64,000 nucleotides of DNA from an uncultured OCS116 cluster bacterium (GTDB taxonomy: Bacteria; Pseudomonadota; Alphaproteobacteria; Rhizobiales; TMED25): positions 1 to 64,000 of the forward strand of contig CACPHU010000001.1 of NCBI GenBank assembly GCA_902633855.1. Direction: 5' to 3'. This document shows positions 11,767 through 49,466 of the stretch, in pieces (position 1 is the first letter of the stretch; every line of letters starts with the position of its first letter). A model generated the notes under the pieces. That model searched no databases, was not told where the DNA came from, and saw only the letters and a list, made by a program, of their open reading frames with translations. The position numbers and the translations under genes were made by a program.

Positions 11767-13005
11767 TTAGAAACCGACTGCTAGTTTCATTTCAGCAAAT
11801 GTTGTTGTGAATTCACCACCGTGACCTCCACCATTTGCTTCTGAAGCGATTGCAATATCATTTGATGATACATCTAATGATAGGTCAACGCCATCACCTA
11901 GAGCAGTTGATAGACCAATGTGTACTACATTTTGCTCATCTGAAACTGGACCGAAGTCATTTTCTGATGTTGTGTAGTCTACAGCTACGTCAATATCACT
12001 AAGTGTTGTTGCAACACCGAATGATACACTTGTTTGATCTGCTTCACCTGTATCTAGTTCAGAATAAGCTGCGCTGAATGTCATATCACCCATTGCATAT
12101 TCTGCACCGACAGCGATTAGGTCTTGGTCACCGCAATGCTCTGTACCGTATACATCGTCAAACAATGCAGCAGCTGTAATTGCAGCGTCAGCAAGTACTA
12201 GAGTAGCCGCTAGATCACAAGCGTTGTTTTCTGATGTTGCACTTTCAATACCACCACCTACTGTTAGGTCGCCTGATGAAAATGTCATACCGATTGAGAA
12301 TGTGTCTAGATATTCAGCTGTGTCATCACCTGTATCACCTGAGTTAGGAGCATAACCAACGTATAGGTCTAAAGCACCCATTGTTGGAGCTTGGTATAGG
12401 ATACCTGTTCCATCTGTACCAGATGTAGCTAATATGTGACCACCTAGGTCAAGAGCACCAGTTACGTCAGCACCTGATGTATCACCAACCATAGCAGCAT
12501 CAACAGCTGAGTCAGCACCGTCTTTGAATGTTAGTGTACCGAAAGCACCACCAAGTGATAGTTCGAATGCACCTTCTTCGCCGTCAACATCTGCTAGATC
12601 TAGTGTGTCTGAGAATGATACTTCCAGACCGTTAGCTAGTGTACCTCCAGCGCTAATGCTGATTTCTTTACCAAATCCTAGGACTGGGTTGTCTTCATCA
12701 TTACCACCACAAGGGTCAGCAGCATATGATACGATACCTGCAACAGCACCGTCGGCGTCAGTATGTTCTGAAACAGTTGCGTCATCAGCTTCAGCGTTAG
12801 CAACGCCATCACCGATATCTGCATCAGCAAGAGCTGTGTTTAGTGAGTCAGCAGCTTGAGCAGTAAAACAATTATCATTCATTGTTGCTGTCAGGCTAGC
12901 TTCACCGCCTAGCTCTAATGAGATGCTTGCAGATGCTGGAGTAGCATACATGCTACCTGCCATTAGTAGAGCAGCTGCACCACCTAATAGAATTTTTTTA
13001 TCCAT
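11767..13005 (-). CDS. Outer-membrane porin, extremely acidic, four-cysteine
   Basis: A 412-residue Gram-negative porin with a signal peptide ending ASA (about residue 26), repeated amphipathic strands and a C-terminal phenylalanine after an alternating strand. I count 69 Asp/Glu in the mature protein against 3 Lys and no Arg, which is remarkable since porin eyelets usually carry arginines. Cysteines at 46, 99, 263 and 291 probably form two disulfides. Start: an upstream in-frame ATG (13018-13020) sits on the AAAGGA that serves the ATG at 13005, so the latter is preferred. Codon use is more GC-rich and biased than its neighbours, suggesting high expression. Solute specificity is unknown. Confidence 0.85.
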   Translation of the reverse strand: MDKKILLGGAAALLMAGSMYATPASASISLELGGEASLTATMNDNCFTAQAADSLNTALADADIGDGVANAEADDATVSEHTDADGAVAGIVSYAADPCGGNDEDNPVLGFGKEISISAGGTLANGLEVSFSDTLDLADVDGEEGAFELSLGGAFGTLTFKDGADSAVDAAMVGDTSGADVTGALDLGGHILATSGTDGTGILYQAPTMGALDLYVGYAPNSGDTGDDTAEYLDTFSIGMTFSSGDLTVGGGIESATSENNACDLAATLVLADAAITAAALFDDVYGTEHCGDQDLIAVGAEYAMGDMTFSAAYSELDTGEADQTSVSFGVATTLSDIDVAVDYTTSENDFGPVSDEQNVVHIGLSTALGDGVDLSLDVSSNDIAIASEANGGGHGGEFTTTFAEMKLAVGF

Positions 13006-13071
13006 GATTTTTCCTTTCATAATAAAAAAAGTTAATAAAAAAAGTTATTTTATATAAAATAACGCACACAA

Positions 13072-18532: not shown

Positions 18533-19546
18533 GTGATCCTACGCAACAAACAAGCTGATGATTTCATAAAAAACCCTAGTGATGACATACAAGGTATACT
18601 GCTGTATGGTCAAGATAGTGGGCTGATAAACCATAGAACAAAAGCTCTTGTAAGTCACTATATCCCAAACAAAAATGATCCTTTTTTATTATCAACAATA
18701 AATAGTTCTCAGATAAATGATGACCCAGGATTACTTGCTGATGAACTGGATACTTTCGCACTTACCAATGATAAAAGGGTTATATTACTAGATTTGTCAT
18801 CTGATCTAAAAAAAGAGCAAGTCGACTGCATAATTGAATCAAAGAGTCAGTCAATCCTGATAATTAATGCAGGCGATTTGAAGACAAGCTCACCCTCAAG
18901 AAAGGCATTTGAAAGTGATAAGAATTTTATCGTGATCCCATGCTACAATAGTTCAAATATTGATATAATGGCTCTACTTAATAACAAACTCATAGATAGA
19001 GATCTTACCATGCATAAAGATGCGAAAGATTTAATTGTAGCATCACTGGGTAATGACTACGGCAATACAACATCAGAAATCGAGAAAATTTTAAACCACC
19101 ATCAAAGCGGCGATGAGATAAGTAAATCAGAAGTGGAGTCTATAATCGTCTCTTCATCAAATATAATTGTTACCGATTTAGTAGACACAGTGTTTGAAAA
19201 AAAAACAAAAAGCATAAGCCGCCTTTATCATTCAGTCTTAGATGAATTCAACCCTGCGCAAATACTTATTATTACATTGAATCATGTCATAAAATTAATG
19301 GAATTATTGGCGGAAAAAGATGACTTGAATATATCGAATAAACAAGTGATTGAAAATACAAAACCACCCATCTTTTTCAAAAGACACCCATCTTTGCAGA
19401 GGCAGCTCAATACCTGGAATAGAGGTACCCTAGGTGATATAATCGAGATTTTGTCAGTAACAACAATTGACACAAGGAAGAATAGCGATTTATCTGTCGA
19501 GTTGACGGAAAGATGTCTCTTAAAGATCTCTTCACTGAAGAATTAA
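18533..19546 (+). CDS. holA: DNA polymerase III subunit delta
   Basis: A 337-residue clamp-loader subunit opening the beta clamp (dnaN also in this window). It has ILLYGQDSGLINHR near the N-terminus, the AAA+-like first domains without a functional P-loop, and the HPSLQRQLNTW helix towards the C-terminus. Start is a GTG with no clear Shine-Dalgarno; no ATG is nearby in frame. Its stop codon overlaps the parB stop on the other strand, TTAA being shared by both. Confidence 0.85.
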   Translation: MILRNKQADDFIKNPSDDIQGILLYGQDSGLINHRTKALVSHYIPNKNDPFLLSTINSSQINDDPGLLADELDTFALTNDKRVILLDLSSDLKKEQVDCIIESKSQSILIINAGDLKTSSPSRKAFESDKNFIVIPCYNSSNIDIMALLNNKLIDRDLTMHKDAKDLIVASLGNDYGNTTSEIEKILNHHQSGDEISKSEVESIIVSSSNIIVTDLVDTVFEKKTKSISRLYHSVLDEFNPAQILIITLNHVIKLMELLAEKDDLNISNKQVIENTKPPIFFKRHPSLQRQLNTWNRGTLGDIIEILSVTTIDTRKNSDLSVELTERCLLKISSLKN

Positions 19547-20424
19547 CCTAATAATTTATTTTTTATAAGCTCCAGATGCTGATCACTTGTATAGTTTATA
19601 ACAACTTTTCCTGGTTTGGCATCTTTGGCATGGATTTGAACTTTAAGGCCAATTGCGTCTGTCATTAACTGTTCAAGTGAGCTTATATTCTTATCCTTCA
19701 TTGATGATCTATTGCTTTTTTTCTGAGCTCCTAATGAGTTTTTAACTAGCTGTTCTATTTGCCTAACACTTAAGCCCTTTGATACGATCATGTCAGCAAG
19801 ATTTTCAGCATTATCCAGAGATATCAATGCCCTTGCGTGACCTATTGTTAACAGTCCTTCGGACAAATAGTCTTTTACTTTCGTCGGTAAATTATTTAGG
19901 CGTAGTATATTAGCGATATAGCTTCTACTTTTTCCAATTACCTGCGCTAAATCTTCCTGAGTGTAATTATAGATGTCAATTAATCTCTGATACCCAGCTG
20001 CCTCATCTACCGGACTCAAATTGCTTCTTTGCACATTTTCTATAATAGCAATTTCTAATGCATCATCGTCAGATAATGTTTTTATTATTGCAGGTATATT
20101 ATCTAGCTGAGCGATTTGTGCAGCTCTCCATCGCCTCTCTCCAGCAATAACTTCATATGATCCAGCACTATCAATTTCTCTTACGATAATCGGTTGAACA
20201 ATACCTTTTTCTCTTATTGAGTTAGCTAAGTCTACAAGTTCATCTTCGGAAAATATACTACGCGGATTTTGTTTATTTGCCTGAATTTTTTCTATTGGAA
20301 GCCTAGCAACATTGAGTTCCAGTTCACTTTCGCCGGGTGCAACTTCTCGTGGGACATCTCCGATTAGTGAGGCCAAGCCTCTGCCAAGTCTTGAAGTCGA
20401 TGCGTTTGTATGTTGCTCTGCCAC
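19543..20424 (-). CDS. parB: Chromosome partitioning protein ParB
   Basis: A 293-residue CTP-dependent DNA clamp that loads at parS. The N-terminus has GRGLASLIGD for ParA contact, then NPRSIFSEDELVDLANSI and the nucleotide-binding blocks EVIAGERRWRAAQ and ENVQRSNLSP; a central HTH (QEDLAQVIGKSRSYIANILRL) binds parS and a C-terminal domain dimerises. A perfect parS is 1.4 kb upstream in rsmG. It follows parA by 16 bp and converges on holA. Confidence 0.96.
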   Translation of the reverse strand: MAEQHTNASTSRLGRGLASLIGDVPREVAPGESELELNVARLPIEKIQANKQNPRSIFSEDELVDLANSIREKGIVQPIIVREIDSAGSYEVIAGERRWRAAQIAQLDNIPAIIKTLSDDDALEIAIIENVQRSNLSPVDEAAGYQRLIDIYNYTQEDLAQVIGKSRSYIANILRLNNLPTKVKDYLSEGLLTIGHARALISLDNAENLADMIVSKGLSVRQIEQLVKNSLGAQKKSNRSSMKDKNISSLEQLMTDAIGLKVQIHAKDAKPGKVVINYTSDQHLELIKNKLLG

Positions 20425-20440
20425 TGTAGGTCCCCTGTTT

Positions 20441-21265
20441 TTATAAATTACTGTTTAATGCGATCTTATCTTTTTTTAAAACTTCTGCTGCTAAGTTCAT
20501 ATAGGCCTGAGAGCCCTGACATTTATAATCATACAAGATAACTGGCTTTCCATATGATGGTGCCTCAGAAACCCTTACATTCCTTGGAATTACTGTTTTG
20601 TATACTTTATCACCAAGAAAGTCTCTAACATCTTTTGCAACTTGACCTGAAAGATTATTTCTTTCGTCAAACATAGTCAAAAGTACACCGTGTATTAACA
20701 GATCTTTATTCAAGGTTGCGCGAACATGTTCGACAGTTTCTAATAGTTGACCTAGGCCTTCAAGCGCGTAGAATTCACATTGTAATGGCACAATGAGGGC
20801 ATCTGCAGCAGCTAGAGCATTTATGGTTAATAAATTTAACGATGGTGGACAATCTATAAGAATATAATCATATTCATTTTTACTTTGTGCCTCAAGCTCT
20901 TCAACAGCCAGCTTTAACTTATATGACTTTTCATTATCTTCAGCCAAAACCGCCTCTAAACCCAGCAGGTCGAGTGTTGATGGTACAATATCAAGATTTT
21001 GCACAAGGGTTTCAAACTTTATGTCTATAATAGTTTGTTCACTGGTTAAAATATCATACGTAGAGAACTTCCTGTCATCTTTGTTAATGCCTAAACCGGT
21101 AGATGCATTTCCTTGGGGATCCAAATCAATGATTAGCACTTTCTCCCCCGCACCAGCAATTGCACAACCTAAATTGATTGCTGTTGTAGTCTTTCCTACA
21201 CCACCCTTTTGGTTGGCGAATGCGAATATTTTGGCTTTGTTGTTATTTTTCTTTAATCCAAACAT
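20441..21265 (-). CDS. parA: Chromosome partitioning ATPase ParA
   Basis: A 274-residue deviant-Walker ATPase, with KGGVGKTT at residues 20-27, the Walker A' loop DLDPQGNASTGLGI and YDYILIDCPPSL as Walker B. It forms the nucleoid-bound gradient that moves ParB-parS complexes. The start abuts the rsmG end, sharing one base, so rsmG-parA-parB are very likely one transcript, as in Caulobacter and many relatives. Confidence 0.96.
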   Translation of the reverse strand: MFGLKKNNNKAKIFAFANQKGGVGKTTTAINLGCAIAGAGEKVLIIDLDPQGNASTGLGINKDDRKFSTYDILTSEQTIIDIKFETLVQNLDIVPSTLDLLGLEAVLAEDNEKSYKLKLAVEELEAQSKNEYDYILIDCPPSLNLLTINALAAADALIVPLQCEFYALEGLGQLLETVEHVRATLNKDLLIHGVLLTMFDERNNLSGQVAKDVRDFLGDKVYKTVIPRNVRVSEAPSYGKPVILYDYKCQGSQAYMNLAAEVLKKDKIALNSNL

Positions 21266-21894
21266 TATTTTCGTTCAATATTAAGAATATATGAGTTTTC
21301 TTGTGTTACACTATCTATAAACTCTACTCTTAATTTTGATGAAATTTTTGCGTTGGTCAACTCACTTTTTGCATTAACACCCTTTTGTAACAGGTATTTT
21401 GTTTTTTTATGCGCATATGGTCTGGATAAAGACATTATATTGTCGATACTTGCAAATGCCCTTGCTGTGATAACATCTACTTTGAATAAGTCCTTCACTG
21501 CCAGATCTTGAAGTCTCTCTGCATATATTTTAACATCCACATCGCATCTCGTGGCAACATGGTCTAAAAACGAACATTTCTTTTTATTTGAGTCTACTAG
21601 GTATATATCCTTACCTATTTGGTTATAATAAATTGCTAGTATAAACCCTGGCAGTCCTGCGCCAGTACCAATATCCATTAAACTCTGAAAATCCTCAGGT
21701 ATTATGCTCACAAGCTGGATAGAGTCTAATATGTGCCTGTGCCATATAGAATTTATTGTAGATTTACCAATAAGATTGAACTTACTTTGCCACTCAATCA
21801 AACACTCAGCATAAATTTCGAGTTTACTGATTGTTTCACGTGAAACATTGTAGTCTCTCTCAATTAAATTTATGACTGATGTTCTATCTGTCAC
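21265..21894 (-). CDS. rsmG: 16S rRNA (guanine-N7) methyltransferase RsmG (GidB)
   Basis: A 209-residue SAM-dependent methyltransferase acting on G527 of 16S rRNA. The SAM motif is DIGTGAGLPGFILAIY, preceded by WHRHILDSIQL. Its N-terminus encodes YNVSRETISKLE; the codons for NVSRET form the parS palindrome, a well-known dual use of this sequence. It lies 3 bp after mnmG and shares a base with parA. Confidence 0.95.
   Translation of the reverse strand: MTDRTSVINLIERDYNVSRETISKLEIYAECLIEWQSKFNLIGKSTINSIWHRHILDSIQLVSIIPEDFQSLMDIGTGAGLPGFILAIYYNQIGKDIYLVDSNKKKCSFLDHVATRCDVDVKIYAERLQDLAVKDLFKVDVITARAFASIDNIMSLSRPYAHKKTKYLLQKGVNAKSELTNAKISSKLRVEFIDSVTQENSYILNIERK
21832..21847. other. parS: parS centromere site inside rsmG
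   Basis: The 16-mer TGTTTCACGTGAAACA is a perfect palindrome identical to the universal bacterial parS consensus. It lies near the 5' end of rsmG, about 1.4 kb from parB and 8.4 kb from the candidate origin at 30.25-30.6 kb, a typical ori-proximal placing. I saw no second perfect copy in the window. Confidence 0.95.
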
Positions 21895-29224: not shown

Positions 29225-30250
29225 TTAACTGAGGCTCCTAACAAATTGTACAAGATCTAGCACATGCTGAGGTGGTGTATTTTTCAGGATACCATGACCA
29301 AGTCCAAGAATAAAGGGTTGATCACGAAACTTGTTAATATTTAACTCAATGTCTTTCTTGAGTTCTGCTCCGCCTCTAAGTAAAATATTAGGTGAGATAT
29401 TACCTTGAACTATAAATTTTTTCTGGAGAATATTCCTAACGTAATCTCTGTCTAGTTCACTATCGACGGCTATTATATTTAACCCTGTTTCCAAGGCATA
29501 TTTTTCATAAAATTTATGAGCGCCCTTGGGGAAACCAATTATAGGAGTTTTTGGGAAAACATCTTTTACTTTTGCGATAATTTTACTCGTTGGCTTGATT
29601 ACCCAATTATTAAATTGACTTTCATTCAGAACACCTGCCCATGAATCAAAAATTTTTACAATGTCAGCCCCTGCTTGAATCTGTAAAATTAAGTAAGCAG
29701 CAGATAGATCGACCAGTACATCAATGATATCATTTGCTAATGATTGGTTGTCCTCCATCCATTTAACGGATTGAGATAGATCTTTTTTTGATCGACCATT
29801 AATCATATAAGTCATTACAGTCCAGGGTGCACCACAAAACCCTATCAAACTCTTCTCTCTTGGTAACTTATTTCTAGTTAAATTAATCGCCTCACCAACG
29901 TTTACTAATTTTGATTTTTCGACTTCAGTGATAACATTCAAAACAGGGTTTTCTATAAGAGGTTTTTCTAAGACAGGACCAATCTTCTCCTCAAATTTTA
30001 TACCCATACCAAAGTTTTGTAAGATTAATAAAATATCTGCAAAAATAATAGCCGCGTCCAAGTCAAATCTACTTATTGGCTGTAAAGTTACCTCGGATGC
30101 ATAATCTGGTTTGTAACACAAGTCTAAAAAACTACCGGCTTTATTTCTGATAACATTGTATTCAGGTAAATACCGACCAGCTTGTCTCATGAGCCATATG
30201 GGAGGTGGCCATATTTTATCCCCATCGTTTAATTTACACAGAATAGTCAT
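29225..30250 (-). CDS. hemE: Uroporphyrinogen decarboxylase
   Basis: A 341-residue cytoplasmic enzyme that removes four carboxyl groups from uroporphyrinogen III. It opens with the signature PPIWLMRQAGRYLPEY, whose arginines bind substrate, followed by DLDAAIIFADIL and FCGAPWTVMTYMI. In Caulobacter and other alphaproteobacteria hemE borders the replication origin; here its upstream side is the 366-bp DnaA-box-bearing gap. Confidence 0.96.
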   Translation of the reverse strand: MTILCKLNDGDKIWPPPIWLMRQAGRYLPEYNVIRNKAGSFLDLCYKPDYASEVTLQPISRFDLDAAIIFADILLILQNFGMGIKFEEKIGPVLEKPLIENPVLNVITEVEKSKLVNVGEAINLTRNKLPREKSLIGFCGAPWTVMTYMINGRSKKDLSQSVKWMEDNQSLANDIIDVLVDLSAAYLILQIQAGADIVKIFDSWAGVLNESQFNNWVIKPTSKIIAKVKDVFPKTPIIGFPKGAHKFYEKYALETGLNIIAVDSELDRDYVRNILQKKFIVQGNISPNILLRGGAELKKDIELNINKFRDQPFILGLGHGILKNTPPQHVLDLVQFVRSLS

Positions 30251-30616
30251 TATATATTATTAAATAGTTTTTGTTGTTGTTACCGTGTGGAAATTGGTAA
30301 TTATTTTTAATGCACAAAATATCCACATTTTAAATATTAACAGGGTAAGCATATAACTTTAATAGCAAAGTTTGAATATCTAACTTTAAATTTAAATAAT
30401 CATTCATTGATCGGATCTTTTATCTGTGTCGCTCTCTTACAAATTCTGTTAGCAATTTGTGTATAACTTGTACATAAGTTTTACTAAAAATATATGTTAG
30501 TAAAGTTTGTGGGTTATTAACTGCAACTATGATGTTAATAAATTCCGGGAAATATGTATAAAATTAGATATTTTTTCTGTATTTTAGAGATATACACATT
30601 ATTGGAGTACTTATAA
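30251..30616. other. oriC: Candidate chromosomal replication origin (oriC)
   Basis: A 366-bp AT-rich non-coding gap between divergent hemE and ppsR, the conserved origin location in Caulobacter and other alphaproteobacteria. DnaA-box-like 9-mers: TGTGTATAA at 30458-30466 (exact reverse of TTATACACA), TGTACATAA at 30469-30477, ATATCCACA at 30319-30327, ATATACACA at 30590-30598, and weaker TGTGGAAAT at 30286 and TGTGGGTTA at 30508. Flanking gene sets point away from it on both sides (hemE-hemJ-rho left, ppsR-maf-coaE-dnaQ right). dnaA itself is 19 kb to the right, parS 8.4 kb to the left. Function is inferred from context and boxes, not shown. Confidence 0.75.
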
Positions 30617-31447
30617 ATGGTGCCTGTTGAAAATAAAATTTCTTATAATATACATTTGGTAAGTGACTCAACTGGTGAAACACTTAGTACAATAGCGAAA
30701 GCTGTACTAGTTCAATACAAGAACCTGAACTTTGAACAACATATACATTCTCTTGTTAGGAGCAAAAAACAAATTGAAACTGTATATGAAGAGATAAAAG
30801 AGAAACCGGGGATAATTCTGTGCACTCTATATGACATTGAGTTAAAGAAGATACTTCAGACTTTGTGCGATGAGCTAAGCATACCACTTATTGATCCACT
30901 TGATACAATTCATCAGTCGCTGACGTCAGTTTATGGAATAAAAGGCAGCCCAATAGTTGGTGGACAACACCAGTTAAATACTGAGTATTTTGAAAGAATT
31001 GATGCGATGAATTATACGCTCGCACATGACGACGGTATTATTTCTGGAGATTTAAATGCAGCAGACATTATACTCATCGGCGTCAGTCGAACATCAAAAA
31101 CTCCCACAAGCATCTATTTAGCAAATAGGGGTATAAAAACTGCGAATATACCTTTTGTGAATAACATTCCTTTGCCACCCGAATTGGATACGGTAAAACA
31201 TCCTATGATTGTAGGACTTGTAGCAACACCTGAGCGAATAATACAAATTAGAAAAAATAGACTGATGGCCTTAAATGCAAAAGATGATAGCAACTATGTG
31301 GATAAGAGGCTTGTTAGTGAAGAAATTCTAAAAGCAAAAAAACTTTTTGAAAATAATAATTGGCCCGTTATTGATGTAACTAGAAAATCTATTGAAGAGA
31401 CTGCTGCGGAGATAATGCTTTTGCTCAGGGGAAGGCATACTGCATAA
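30617..31447 (+). CDS. ppsR: Pyruvate,phosphate dikinase / PEP synthase regulatory protein
   Basis: A 276-residue bifunctional kinase/pyrophosphorylase (DUF299 family) that switches PPDK or PEP synthase off and on by threonine phosphorylation. It has HLVSDSTGETLSTIAKA at the N-terminus and the P-loop-like GVSRTSKTPTSIYLANRG at about residue 154. Whether the target here is PPDK or PEP synthase cannot be told. It is the first gene right of the candidate origin; its stop overlaps the maf start by one base. Confidence 0.93.
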   Translation: MVPVENKISYNIHLVSDSTGETLSTIAKAVLVQYKNLNFEQHIHSLVRSKKQIETVYEEIKEKPGIILCTLYDIELKKILQTLCDELSIPLIDPLDTIHQSLTSVYGIKGSPIVGGQHQLNTEYFERIDAMNYTLAHDDGIISGDLNAADIILIGVSRTSKTPTSIYLANRGIKTANIPFVNNIPLPPELDTVKHPMIVGLVATPERIIQIRKNRLMALNAKDDSNYVDKRLVSEEILKAKKLFENNNWPVIDVTRKSIEETAAEIMLLLRGRHTA

Positions 31448-48338: not shown

Positions 48339-49466
48339 CTAGACACGCATTGGCATCAAGACGTAAAGCGTCGCCTCATCATTTGGATCTAGAACTAAAC
48401 AAGGAGAATTTGGTTCAGAAAATAAAAGCTTTACGGAATCACCGCTTAATTGCGATAAAATATCTAACAAATATTTTGAATTGAAGCCAATCTCAAAATC
48501 ATCACCCTTAAAATCTACTGATATTTCTTCAATTGCAGTTCCAGCTTCAGGGCTAGTAACCGACAAGGTAAGACTGTTATTATTCAAAGACAATTTAACT
48601 GCTCGCCCGCGTTCGCTCGATAACGTTGCCACTCTATCTACGGCGTTGGTAAGTATACTTGTTTTCACTGACATTGCTTTATCATTTTGGAATGGTATCA
48701 CCCGTTGATAATCTGGAAATGTTCCATCTATTACTTTAGAAGTTACTTCAATATTATTAAAAACAAACTTTAATTTATTTTCGGAAATCTTAACCTCAAC
48801 ATCTCCATCATTTTCAAGCGTCAACTTTTGTATTTCAGCGATTGTTTTTCTTGGGATAATGATCCCTGGCATACCTAATGCTCCTTCAGGTAAAGTTAAT
48901 TCCGCCTGTGCTAGGCGATGACCGTCAGTGGATACAGTTCTTAGGGTTGAAATTTTATCTCCATTTATTGGCTTTGACTCATGAAAGTAAATACCATTCA
49001 GGTAGTACCGTGTTTCTTCATTTGAAATAGCAAATCTTGTTTTCTCAATCAATCTGTTCAATTCACCACTTACAATTGTGAAAGCATGAGAAAATTCATT
49101 ATCTGATATTTCTGGGAAGTCTGATCGTGGAAGTGTTTGAAGTTTGAAGTTTGATTTACCTGACTTTATTGTTAAATGATCTTGACTGTCGTCTTTTGAC
49201 AGAGTTATTTCAGATGAGTCAGGTAATTTTCTAATTATATCATAAACAAGGTGGGCCGGAGCAGTTAAGCTCCCACCTTTTTCAATTTTTGCATCAATTT
49301 CTTCAATTAGTTCGATGTCTAGATCTGTTGCGATTAATTTCAAACCAACACCTTCTGCAATAATTAGAATATTTGCAAGTATCGGTATTGTGTTCCTTCT
49401 TTCAACAACATTTTGTACATGAGTGAGTGCTTTTAGGAACTGATTTTTTTGAAGTATTGCTTCCAT
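48339..49466 (-). CDS. dnaN: DNA polymerase III beta sliding clamp
   Basis: A 375-residue clamp that tethers the replicase to DNA. Three repeated domains can be traced, from FLKALTHVQNVVERRNTIPILANIL to the C-terminal SPCLVLDPNDEATLYVLMPMRV, the hydrophobic pocket that binds replication proteins. It follows dnaA by 99 bp, the classic dnaA-dnaN order, in a gap that could hold its own promoter. Confidence 0.97.
   Translation of the reverse strand: MEAILQKNQFLKALTHVQNVVERRNTIPILANILIIAEGVGLKLIATDLDIELIEEIDAKIEKGGSLTAPAHLVYDIIRKLPDSSEITLSKDDSQDHLTIKSGKSNFKLQTLPRSDFPEISDNEFSHAFTIVSGELNRLIEKTRFAISNEETRYYLNGIYFHESKPINGDKISTLRTVSTDGHRLAQAELTLPEGALGMPGIIIPRKTIAEIQKLTLENDGDVEVKISENKLKFVFNNIEVTSKVIDGTFPDYQRVIPFQNDKAMSVKTSILTNAVDRVATLSSERGRAVKLSLNNNSLTLSVTSPEAGTAIEEISVDFKGDDFEIGFNSKYLLDILSQLSGDSVKLLFSEPNSPCLVLDPNDEATLYVLMPMRV

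Follow-up and report, generated by a model that had tools for sequence, protein, structure and literature searches.

A predicted chromosomal replication origin of the hemE/ppsR kind in an OCS116-cluster alphaproteobacterium

Does the AT-rich gap between hemE and ppsR serve as the chromosomal replication origin of an OCS116-cluster alphaproteobacterium, or is it simply the shared upstream region of two divergent genes? The hemE/COG1806 location of the origin is proven in Caulobacter crescentus and predicted in Rickettsia prowazekii (PMC1914354), and a gap of the same kind is found in the window analyzed here, a stretch of DNA covering positions 1 to 64,000 of a 189-kb contig from an assembly of 1.17 Mb (26 contigs, 73% complete). 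The HemE protein is 77–100% identical to those of the closest named relatives, which are marine genomes of the OCS116 cluster and of the “Rhodobiaceae”. To the left of the gap lie hemJ, rho, mnmE, mnmG, rsmG, parA, parB, and a holA-like gene, and to the right maf, coaE, dnaQ, and secB. In its hemE/COG1806 boundaries, the context rho-hemJ-hemE/ppsR-maf-coaE-dnaQ agrees with the proven origin of C. crescentus and the predicted one of R. prowazekii (PMC1914354). The parallel originally drawn with Caulobacter, in which hemE adjoins the origin, holds. Since hemE/ppsR is the usual place of the origin in Alphaproteobacteria, the find is sound but ordinary. The coordinates of the features are collected in Table 1.

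Table 1. Features of the hemE/ppsR gap and its surroundings, in window coordinates
Feature	Coordinates	Strand	Remarks
Putative oriC, hemE/ppsR intergenic region	30251..30616		366 bp, 24% GC, densest DnaA-box cluster, skew switch point
hemE, uroporphyrinogen decarboxylase	29225..30250	-	left boundary gene; NCBIfam TIGR01464
ppsR (COG1806/DUF299)	30617..31447	+	right boundary gene; NCBIfam NF003742
dnaA	49566..51014	-	then dnaN 48339-49466; ~19 kb right of the hemE/ppsR gap
parS TGTTTCACGTGAAACA	21832..21847	+	inside rsmG, in the rsmG-parA-parB operon; 8.4 kb from the gap
parB (19543-20424) and parA (20441-21265)	19543..21265	-	Pfam
DnaA box TAATGCACA	30308..30316	+	exact TTATNCACA in three relatives (G010, G001, G006)
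DnaA box ATATCCACA	30319..30327	+	TTATCCACA in three relatives; 11 bp from the 30308 box
Recurrent motif TATTAACAGGG	30335..30345	+	recurs in other hemE/ppsR gaps
DnaA box TTATACACA/TGTGTATAA	30458..30466	-	exact to TTATNCACA; TTATCCACA in two relatives
DnaA box TTATGTACA	30469..30477	-	11 bp from the 30458 box
DnaA box TTATTAACA	30533..30541	-	TTATTCACA in one relative
DnaA box-like TTATACATA	30553..30561	-	retained in the genus
DnaA box ATATACACA	30590..30598	+	TTATTCACA in one relative
Candidate unwinding element	30552..30601		50-bp segment of lowest stability in the gap; 99.5th percentile window-wide

The length of the gap was confirmed, and its GC content is below the 31–41% found in the 2-kb bins of the window. 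The AT-richness stressed in the original prediction is therefore real, but it is not distinctive by itself, as the window has several other gaps that melt more readily; likewise, the candidate unwinding element lies at the 99.5% level of the window, yet other stretches are less stable. The proposed co-directional divergence of genes from the gap was borne out for approximately 3 kb on each side, where rho-hemJ-hemE runs leftward and ppsR-maf-coaE-dnaQ runs rightward, but not at longer range: over 30 kb, 46% of the coding bases on the left side are leftward and 56% of those on the right side are rightward. In one sampled genome, L025 (G047, a single contig of 8.0 Mb), no hemE was detected in the 1.5 kb upstream of ppsR, and the origin neighborhood there appears to be rearranged. 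The segregation genes lie nearby, and the perfect parS is indeed present, and no other site in the whole assembly comes within two mismatches of parS; for comparison, parS of Caulobacter is located within 8 kb of Cori, the chromosomal origin (PMC4468827).

DnaA boxes were counted as sites that differ from TTATNCACA at no more than one position, and the expectation was taken from 1000 dinucleotide shuffles. The gap contains seven boxes, against a mean of 1.09 in the shuffles, none of which reached seven. These include the exact box at 30458 and the one-mismatch boxes at 30319, 30469, and 30590 that had been picked out from the sequence, together with three further one-mismatch boxes at 30308, 30533, and 30553. 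A single exact TTATNCACA box would arise in a gap so rich in AT with p=0.05 according to the shuffles; what is remarkable is the box array, not the lone exact box. The equivalent gap in nine relatives from the genus and family carries six to nine boxes (1.1–1.6 in shuffles). Within the genus, most box positions are retained at aligned sites though the bases vary, and in a neighboring genus, represented by two genomes, the array is present while its boxes mostly cannot be aligned one by one. Across eight species, boxes on the same strand are spaced 11 bp apart 12 times and never 9, 10, or 12 bp apart. TTATCCACA, the strongest box, is present in 10 of the 26 gaps sampled from the order, compared with 0.09 for permuted 9-mers, and the recurrent motif TATTAACAGGG, counted as TTAACAGG, is found in eight of these 26 (permuted 8-mers: mean 0.24, best 5). 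In G012 (L010), the TATTAACAGGG motif is present as an inverted pair that forms the palindrome CCCTGTTAATAAAGATATTAACAGGG. A reading of the exact boxes at 30458, 31156, and 31297, which lie within 850 bp, as one cluster was dropped, as the two inside ppsR are unconserved.

Boxes of this kind may also serve transcription, and the gap could be a mere divergent promoter region for hemE and ppsR at which DnaA acts as a transcriptional regulator while initiation takes place elsewhere. DnaA does regulate promoters in Caulobacter (PMC4468827), and a TTGTTGTTGTTAC block near the start of hemE (30271-30283), which is found with small changes in all ten genomes of the genus and family, is possibly the promoter or leader of hemE. 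This explanation is nevertheless very unlikely, because the density of boxes is not a general property of gaps: among the 23 gaps of the 189-kb contig, the second-ranking one has two boxes, and three exact-box clusters elsewhere in the assembly (contigs C8, C4, and C12), considered as rival origins, reach just three sites per 366 bp. In all seven contigs that carry the origin region, the densest 400 bp is the hemE/ppsR gap, with 7–10 sites against 4–5 in the runner-up. Moreover, the point at which the replication-strand skew switches coincides with the gap.

The location of that switch point depends on how the skew is computed. The check by cumulative GC skew suggested with the original prediction fails in its raw form, in which the minimum of the contig lies 61 kb from the gap; in all three long contigs, the raw minimum is found 61–64 kb to the right. 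Between 30 and 60 kb right of the gap, the minus strand carries 93% of the coding bases, and the minimum falls at +61 kb because this 30-kb block of leftward genes ends there. The raw minimum is thus a transcription artifact. The third-position GC skew of each gene was therefore modeled as the sum of a gene-strand term and a replication term that flips at a position x0. For the three long contigs, plain least squares gave a switch between −17.5 and −20 kb, a position that was discarded since it could largely be traced to one gene with extreme codon bias. This gene, a porin (Pfam Porin_4) at 11767-13020 on the minus strand, approximately −18 kb from the gap, has 18 G and 73 C at its third positions, an extreme bias relative to its neighbors, and the five relatives with contigs that span the gene show the same C bias. 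When a Huber fit was applied to seven genomes pooled, the optimum was at 0 kb whether the porin was included or excluded. With the porin excluded, the pooled log-likelihood relative to 0 kb was −41 at −20 kb, −61 at dnaA, and −96 at +60 kb, values that are upper bounds on the precision, as the seven genomes are related. With gene strand accounted for, the sign of the replication-strand GC3 skew flips at the gap.

These fits also bear on the idea that replication starts elsewhere nearby, namely 19–20 kb to the left around xth, yggS, and the porin gene, at dnaA (+19 kb), or where the raw skew has its minimum (+61 kb). Besides the raw minimum and the plain least-squares switch, the robust fit without the porin speaks for the left-hand site in two genomes, with an optimum at −19 kb clearly in G003 (0 kb lower by 2.6 log units) and in G001 (0 kb lower by 0.2 log units). 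By contrast, in the more divergent G008, G012, and G013 the switch falls no more than 3 kb from the gap. In G008, a switch at −20 kb is rejected by 9 to 11 log units. The contigs of G012 and G013 start at −16 and −17 kb, and these two genomes require a switch near 0 kb, within the stretch covered, which improves the fit by 13 to 16 log units compared with no switch. In every one of the seven genomes, dnaA is rejected by 5 to 17 log units, and the +61 kb minimum is produced by the strand bias of the genes alone. No box cluster was found at −20 kb, at dnaA, or at +61 kb, and the scan of contig gaps found no DnaA box in the 373 bp upstream of dnaA. An origin at any of these sites is hence extremely improbable. 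Since the assembly is 73% complete, a rival locus could lie outside the assembled part. Based on the box arrays of the relatives, the densest cluster in its contig, the corrected GC3 switch, the parS/parAB linkage, and the gene neighborhood, the hemE/ppsR gap is predicted with high confidence to be the chromosomal replication origin, and its location, box array, and parS linkage make it a member of the hemE/COG1806 kind.

The predicted origin resembles Cori of C. crescentus in its boundary genes, its several mostly weak boxes, its AT-richness, and a parS approximately 8 kb away. Cori, however, contains five CtrA sites and an IHF site (PMC1914354, PMC4468827), whereas exact-match searches of the gap in the window found neither the CtrA site TTAA-N7-TTAA nor the IHF consensus WATCAANNNNTTR, and no GANTC is present; CtrA sites with one mismatch number one against 2.0 expected, which is not above chance. 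The boxes also seem to differ in type, being TTATNCACA-like in the OCS116 gap in contrast to the G-box/W-box set of Caulobacter. Judged by its sequence, the gap is not a CtrA-gated origin like Cori. The predicted origin of R. prowazekii shares the boundary genes and the small AT-rich genome, but CtrA and IHF sites are reported for it, as far as the reference list of one review (PMC4468827) and PMC1914354 indicate, and the OCS116 gap has no exact site of either type. An Rfam search of the gap for origin-linked RNA returned nothing above chance. The Caulobacter origin has an ncRNA, CcnA (PMC8959179).

The genome itself encodes CtrA (NF045991), GcrA, and a CcrM-like methylase that carries a RAMA domain. 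In locus L091, a 209-aa protein encoded at 1761-2390 on the minus strand, convergent with ctrA, resembles the phosphotransferase ChpT by eye and has no NCBIfam match. The hemE/ppsR gaps of 36 other families of the order, each represented by one genome, were surveyed for the corresponding sites. They share the neighborhood and the TTATCCACA boxes with the window, and exact TTAA-N7-TTAA sites occur in 14 of the 36 (L014, L016, L017, L021-L024, L026, L027, L132, L140, L141, L147, and L148) against 0.8 in shuffles, while other spacers from 3 to 11 between the TTAA halves occur zero or one time each. GANTC is enriched approximately twofold in these gaps (105 vs 56). Unlike those families, the family of the window has exact CtrA-type sites in two of ten genomes and almost no GANTC. 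A 2015 review described CtrA sites as unseen in origins beyond Caulobacter and possibly Rickettsia (PMC4468827), and CtrA of Brucella was reported not to bind the origin (PMC2877005). The survey points to CtrA marking of origins more widely than the review allows, and to its loss or absence in the window's family; the TTAA-N7-TTAA site could instead serve the hemE or ppsR promoter, and the survey is best taken as a lead.

A possible course of initiation can be proposed from this arrangement. DnaA, encoded 19 kb away, may bind the approximately seven boxes, which are probably mostly moderate or weak, two of them pointing rightward near hemE and the others, four leftward and one rightward, lying towards ppsR. 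The 11-bp spacing of the close pairs would keep them in helical phase. Bound DnaA could then melt adjacent AT-rich DNA, probably on the ppsR side at the candidate unwinding element, and two forks would depart in opposite directions. ParB bound to the single parS may subsequently segregate the new origins.

The predicted origin is an ordinary, well-placed oriC of the hemE/ppsR kind in a new lineage. For origin calling, the locus illustrates how uncorrected cumulative GC skew is off by 61 kb, how correction for gene strand repairs the placement, and how a porin with extreme third-position C bias distorts skew-based calls. With its probable origin placed, this uncultured marine lineage becomes accessible to growth-rate estimates from read depth and to replichore analysis.
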